A stretch of DNA of 64,000 nt, taken from the NCBI RefSeq assembly GCF_945277285.1, contig NZ_CALYPR010000002.1:319214-383213 (forward strand), given 5' to 3'. Of the stretch, positions 26,655 to 27,711 are shown piece by piece. This stretch comes from an uncultured Bartonella sp. (GTDB taxonomy: Bacteria; Pseudomonadota; Alphaproteobacteria; Rhizobiales; Rhizobiaceae). Both the position numbers and the translations under genes were made by a program. The stretch's first letter is position 1, and every line of letters starts with the position of its first letter. The notes beneath the pieces are model-generated. The model did no database searches, was not told the DNA's origin, and saw nothing but the letters and a program-made list of their open reading frames with translations.

Positions 26655-26694
26655 TAATCTCGTGACGGTCAGCTTTAAGTGATCGGAAAGTGTG

Positions 26695-27711
26695 ATGACT
26701 AAACTATTAGTCTCGCTTGAAGATATTGAAGATGCGCGAATCGCTTATAGCGTTCGCGCAGATATTGTTGTGGTGAAAGGAACATTGCAGAAAATTCAAA
26801 TGCTTTGTTCGGCCATCAAAACAATGGCTGACTATTCACCGCAAATTTGGCTGGAAGTTGCCGACGCTTCCGCCCTCAATGATGAAAAGGTGAAAGCCTG
26901 TGGCGCAACGACAATTGTTGTTTCCTCATCTCCTGAAAAACTGTCGAATTTTGTCAAGGTGCAAGCAAATCAATGTAATGGCTATCGCCTCGTTGCAGTG
27001 ATTGAAGCAGAAAACTCGCCGAATAATGCGTTGATCCCGATCATAGCCGCTCTAGGATTTCAAGGAGTATTGCTCAGACCAAGCAGTATCGAACAGACAA
27101 TTTTGAGCCAGTTAAAAGTGGAAAAAATTGGCCAATTCCTATCAAAAAGCCATTTATTCGGTTTGCAAGCCGGTGTCATTGGTATGCTTGAGGCTCCCGA
27201 TATTCCACGATTGTTACCCTATTCGCCAGAATGGCTGGGTTTTATTATTAAACATCCCGTCAGATCAGGTCAGTTTGGCGATAAGTCAACCAATGCACTG
27301 ATGCGTGCGCTTTTGCCTGCTGATAGCGGGGCAGAGCAGACTGCAGAAGGTACAGGGCTTGGAACCGATCGTATTATTGTCGAAGACTATATACTACCAG
27401 TGGAAATTGGTGCCTATAAGCGTGAATATGGCCGCAAACAGAAAGTTCGCTTTAATATAACTGCCGATGTTGAACGTTTATCGGCAAATCCCGAGGATAT
27501 GCGGCACATTTTTTCTTATGACCTTATTCTTGATGGTATCAAGAATCTGGTATCGCTCGGTCATATAGAGCTGGTTGAAACACTGGCAGAACGTATTGCA
27601 GCACTAATTCTCGCTTACCCGCGGGTCAAGAAAGTGGTTGTACGTGTTGACAAGCTCGAGCTTGGTCCGGCGGCTGTTGGTATCGAGATAGAGCGGGGAA
27701 AAAAAACCTGA
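26695..27711 (+). CDS. Fusion: N-terminal MfnB-like (5-formylfuran-3-yl)methyl phosphate synthase-type domain + C-terminal dihydroneopterin aldolase (FolB-like) domain
   Basis: N-term TKLLVSLEDIEDARIAYSVRADIVVVKGT and SHLFGLQAGVIGMLEAPDIPRLLPYSPEWLGFIIK resemble MfnB/DUF556. C-term DRIIVEDYILPVEIGAYKREYGRKQKVRFNITADV...FSYDLILDGIKNLV...HIELVETLAERIAALIL...VGIEIER is FolB-like. Confidence 0.7.
   Translation: MTKLLVSLEDIEDARIAYSVRADIVVVKGTLQKIQMLCSAIKTMADYSPQIWLEVADASALNDEKVKACGATTIVVSSSPEKLSNFVKVQANQCNGYRLVAVIEAENSPNNALIPIIAALGFQGVLLRPSSIEQTILSQLKVEKIGQFLSKSHLFGLQAGVIGMLEAPDIPRLLPYSPEWLGFIIKHPVRSGQFGDKSTNALMRALLPADSGAEQTAEGTGLGTDRIIVEDYILPVEIGAYKREYGRKQKVRFNITADVERLSANPEDMRHIFSYDLILDGIKNLVSLGHIELVETLAERIAALILAYPRVKKVVVRVDKLELGPAAVGIEIERGKKT

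Follow-up and report, generated by a model that had tools for sequence, protein, structure and literature searches.

The closest described counterpart of the barrel considered here is MfnB MJ1099, a 4-HFC-P synthase (PF04476; structures 4RC1 and 4U9P) that shares its fold and family. We take D25, K27, K85, and D151 of MJ1099 to have catalytic roles in MfnB. They form a pentad with K155, the one residue of the five whose role in catalysis is taken here from published work. Orf22 of Methylorubrum extorquens is a close known system grouped with MJ1099 (PMC8141765). The gene compared with them here lies in a window of 64,000 nucleotides from an uncultured Bartonella sp. and encodes an MfnB-type barrel followed, in the same chain, by a dihydroneopterin aldolase (FolB) domain. 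Judging from sequence comparisons, the barrel is probably a pseudoenzyme that was left behind when the C1 pathway was lost and has been kept to serve the genome's only, intact FolB as a structural partner.

Architecture of the gene and state of its two domains

The reading frame is open across positions 26695 to 27711 (+) and encodes 338 amino acids plus a stop codon; the ATG start at 26695 has GGAAAG a short way 5' of it, and a GTG lies in frame at 26692. Among the neighboring genes that were examined, which include those for an FMN reductase, a TerC-like protein, and SecDF, none has a C1 or folate role. The N-terminal domain (residues 1 to 208; 26695 to 27318, +) matches the PF04476 (4-HFC-P synthase) profile over residues 47 to 183 (E value of 2.3e-11, 44.3 bits against a Pfam cutoff of 22.4). 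The AlphaFold model, built from 17 sequences (mean pLDDT of 81), places eight strands within this domain and still predicts the barrel fold with good confidence (pLDDT of 68 to 93 in 10-residue blocks), and the best solved barrel found by Foldseek is MJ1099 (4RC1 and 4U9P; E value of about 2e-9). Profile search, AlphaFold, and Foldseek are thus concordant, and the domain is an MfnB-type (βα)8 barrel similar to MJ1099. It is followed by a low-confidence linker (residues 209 to 222; 27319 to 27360, +), disordered in the model at residues 211 to 220 (pLDDT below 50), and then by a FolB fold (residues 223 to 338; 27361 to 27708, +), which matches PF02152 over residues 227 to 333 (E value of 1.9e-16, 61 bits against a cutoff of 31.8); in the Foldseek search against the PDB, the FolB structure 3V9O ranked first, and FolB structures were matched with a target TM-score of about 0.8. 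The two domains that the initial annotation had recognized, MfnB-like and FolB-like, were therefore both recovered.

The two halves turned out to differ in the state of their active sites. In the FolB half, E244, Y275, E295, and K320, which we take to be the dihydroneopterin aldolase active-site Glu, Tyr, Glu, and Lys, are intact and are 100% conserved in the fused proteins, although these FolB domains score below the standard FolB of Rhizobiaceae (E values of 1e-13 to 1e-20 versus about 1e-27 to 1e-35). For the barrel, the window protein and its relatives were aligned to MJ1099, after which the columns are numbered; at the D25, K27, K85, D151, and K155 columns, the window protein has V, K, V, R, and a gap. 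The D25 column is V26, the K85 column is V75 (codon 26917 to 26919, +), and the region from D151 to K155 (27076 to 27090, +) has R128 at the former position and the gap at the latter, so that the two lysines, K85 and K155, described as lost in the initial annotation are indeed missing. The third lysine, which had been called kept, is present at the K27 column (K28; codon 26776 to 26778, +) but is not conserved: since the nearest relatives carry S (L001 to L005) or G (L006) there and the adjoining D25 is V, its presence is probably coincidental. The columns of the GS phosphate-binding loop and of R208 are occupied by M164 and I184, respectively, in place of the phosphate-binding residues of MfnB.

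Distribution of intact and decayed fusions

The family sample comprised 249 Rhizobiaceae genomes, with FhcD (PF01913) as the marker for the methylofuran/tetrahydromethanopterin pathway. PF04476 was found in 58 of them, each time with FolB after it in a single reading frame; together with its occurrence in 14 of 71 Bartonella genomes, this shows that the fusion is neither a chance event nor an assembly error. An additional, nonfused FolB was found in 4 of the 58 fusion genomes and not in the other 54, and one genome (G218) has two fusions. FhcD was present in 42 of the 249 genomes, namely 41 with a strong MfnB match (E value below 1e-52) and G086, which is without any PF04476 and carries a standard, standalone FolB. 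The 17 other genomes with PF04476 had a weaker match (E value of 1e-38 or weaker), a broken pentad, and no FhcD; the association between the state of MfnB and FhcD gave a Fisher P value of 5e-15, uncorrected for kinship. In two small genomes (G146 and G162), fusions with a barrel undetected by Pfam were found, again with no FhcD match, and the barrel is shortened in G228 and G162.

At the residue level, all of the aligned intact fusions have the complete pentad; they comprise L017, 40 loci of the family, and the intact fusions of Phyllobacterium, the split-frame G127/L086 having been left out. Not one of the 34 decayed sequences has the full pentad, and neither K155 nor P29 is found in any of them. 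Retention at the catalytic and phosphate-binding columns falls to 0 to 35% in the decayed lineages, and P29, K85, K155, S188, R208, and R217 vary among these lineages with no new common set of polar pocket residues. Outside this sample, the fused MfnB of L162 (G520, family f28) has apparently lost K27 and K85, keeps K155, and has the pattern E-x-x-D-x-P-R; it is a possible intermediate of decay.

Both states occur within each of five genera (g51, g60, g64, g80, and g89), which makes repeated decay or replacement probable. On the best FolB-domain tree, in which few forks are supported, parsimony required 9 changes, and an independent-pairs test on the starred branches of this poorly resolved tree, which offer only 2 independent pairs, was not significant. 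In Phyllobacterium sp. OV277, a decayed and an intact fusion coexist; this strain and three other FhcD-positive Phyllobacterium genomes have, in addition to the decayed copy, an intact fusion located on the same contig as FhcD. In Phyllobacterium sp. 628, the fusion is decayed and FhcD is absent.

The host genome (2.45 Mb, 9 contigs) has Bartonella apihabitans and B. apis among its nearest named relatives, and the gene at 26695 to 27711 is its only match to PF04476 and its only match to FolB. FhcD gave no match in this genome, nor in any of 11 named Bartonella genomes. The proposal of the initial annotation that the fusion is a remnant of C1-cofactor biosynthesis is well supported by this distribution, in which intact fusions accompany FhcD and decayed ones occur where it is absent, and by the lack of FhcD and of a second MfnB in the host genome. 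FolB, PF04476, and FolK (HPPK match with an E value of 4.6e-38 in G000) are present in exactly the same 14 of the 71 Bartonella genomes, and all three are absent from the remaining 57. Given this co-occurrence, the FolB half is most simply the folate enzyme of the group, and the fused protein would most simply be the only dihydroneopterin aldolase of the genome, serving folate synthesis. A frameshift in the barrel of B. choladocola BBC0122 (L007:8001-9007) was considered as a natural knockout and set aside; since the one-base deletion falls at a run of seven C, it may be real or a sequencing error.

Retention of the decayed barrel

Selection was gauged from pairwise Nei-Gojobori dN/dS values of close pairs with bootstrap bounds. 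They were 0.07 to 0.25 for the decayed barrels (bootstrap upper bounds below 0.4), about 0.04 to 0.13 for the intact barrels, and 0.01 to 0.03 for the FolB half; in Bartonella, the rate of evolution of the barrel is several times that of FolB. The decayed barrel is thus under relaxed but far from neutral, purifying selection, which on a tethered domain could amount merely to a requirement not to misfold.

One part of the barrel has been kept through the decay. The motif E-A-P-D-I-P-R (residues 166 to 172; 27190 to 27210, +) is shared, as E166, P168, D169, and R172, by all 44 intact fusions counted in the alignment and by four fused proteins of other families; each of the four residues is kept in 82 to 100% of the 17 decayed lineages, and D169 and R172 are found in all 34 decayed sequences. 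Among the unfused MfnBs of the order (n = 22), none has E166 or P168, 5% have R172, and 55% have D169, and no unfused MfnB that was examined has the full motif. Since the fused proteins with the motif form one clade (support of 93), the motif may be a mark of that clade and not a consequence of fusion, and its association with fusion is not replicated outside this single clade. A second mfnB-folB fusion, apparently recent, was seen in L118 and L120 (family f31); it is without the E-x-P-D-x-P-R motif, and in their close relatives L114 and L126, mfnB and folB are adjacent yet separate genes.

A lysine-free MfnB also occurs unfused. In genus g204 of family f11, outside Rhizobiaceae, four genomes have an MfnB homologue that stands alone and lacks all three catalytic lysines. 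At L172 (9649-12000, -), where the flanks were read, it follows folP, folB, and folK in an operon, and the lysine-free standalone MfnBs (L172, L153, L154, L155, and L169) are under purifying selection (dN/dS of 0.10 to 0.29). The converse arrangement is found in G158 (L167), where a FolB of the fusion class stands alone, with no detectable MfnB remnant nearby, which shows that not every lineage needs the barrel. In this FolB, A240, Y241, and D280, which are invariant or nearly so in the fused proteins, are changed; since the G158 branch is long, these changes are a hint only.

These observations are best explained by the following sequence of events. An ancestor would have made methylofuran and tetrahydromethanopterin, and its MfnB furan synthase would have become fused to FolB at that time. 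The fusion would then have displaced the ordinary standalone FolB, so that the gene could not be dropped along with the pathway. After loss of the C1 pathway, the lysines of MfnB, their acidic partners, and the phosphate-binding residues would have been lost while the FolB half stayed intact, and the barrel would have persisted because folding, assembly, or stability of the fused FolB requires it.

It is also conceivable that the barrel is an idle relic, decaying slowly because a clean deletion is rare and because the essential FolB would suffer from having a misfolded domain attached to it. The loss of catalytic residues wherever FhcD is absent, the shortened barrels of G228 and G162, the complete removal of the barrel in G158, and its faster evolution in Bartonella would all be expected of such a relic. 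We nevertheless regard this explanation as unlikely, if one to be taken seriously, since close-range dN/dS is well under 1, D169 and R172 are retained without exception in the 34 decayed sequences, and the unfused MfnB in the f11 folP-folB-folK operon is under selection with no tether forcing its retention. That the barrel still works as an MfnB, using alternative catalytic residues to feed a cryptic methylofuran-like cofactor, seems hardly credible: the PF04476 score is above the cutoff and a lysine stands at the K27 column, but D25, K85, D151, and K155 are absent, FhcD is missing from the host genome and the 11 named Bartonella genomes, and the pentad stays intact in the pathway-bearing fusions examined.

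The initial annotation had suggested a repurposing for another aldolase chemistry, and a barrel that gained a different catalytic activity, for instance with a pterin or a phosphorylated intermediate of the folate pathway as substrate, would account for a fold that is kept and under selection and for the lysine-free MfnB within the f11 folate operon; TIM barrels, moreover, often change function. This suggestion was not supported, and we consider a new enzyme quite improbable, because the catalytic and phosphate-binding positions P29, K85, K155, S188, R208, and R217 are lost and differ by lineage, and no new combination of active-site or polar pocket residues is common to the lineages. A noncatalytic role in FolB appears to fit better, given that the motif of the fusion clade and purifying selection both persist. 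As a wider and more tentative proposal than the structural partnership itself, and one that we would not favor at present, the dead MfnB barrel might be a hitherto unrecognized accessory of folate synthesis that FolB requires for its assembly or control, having arisen repeatedly after C1 loss, fused in Rhizobiaceae and separate in a folP-folB-folK operon elsewhere.

Comparison with known systems

Our literature search, which left subscription papers mostly outside its reach, found no paper describing an MfnB-FolB fusion. The proteins described here are a natural before-and-after series of one fusion whose first domain lost its pathway, with the intact and decayed states in related species, and they offer a way to test both the origin of a pseudoenzyme and the reasons for its retention. 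For annotation, the presence of such a gene in bee-gut Bartonella should not be taken as a sign of methylofuran synthesis; its FolB half identifies those Bartonella that have kept FolB and FolK.

Unlike MfnB, the window protein is without the catalytic lysines, their acidic partners, and the phosphate-binding residues, is fused to FolB, and comes from a genome without FhcD. With FolB (PF02152; e.g., 3V9O) it shares all four active-site residues, and FolK occurs in the same genomes, but it differs from a standard FolB in carrying the N-terminal barrel and in its lower score. The intact Rhizobiaceae fusions, such as that of Mesorhizobium sp. LHD-90 (L017), have the same architecture, the E-x-P-D-x-P-R motif, and a homologous FolB; the LHD-90 protein differs in its intact D/K/K/D/K pentad and in the presence of FhcD in its genome. 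PDX1.2 with PDX1.3 is a case of a pseudoenzyme that supports an active partner. By analogy, the dead barrel of the window protein is likewise proposed to support an active enzyme; unlike in the PDX pair, the partner that it would assist, FolB, is an enzyme of another kind and belongs to the same polypeptide.
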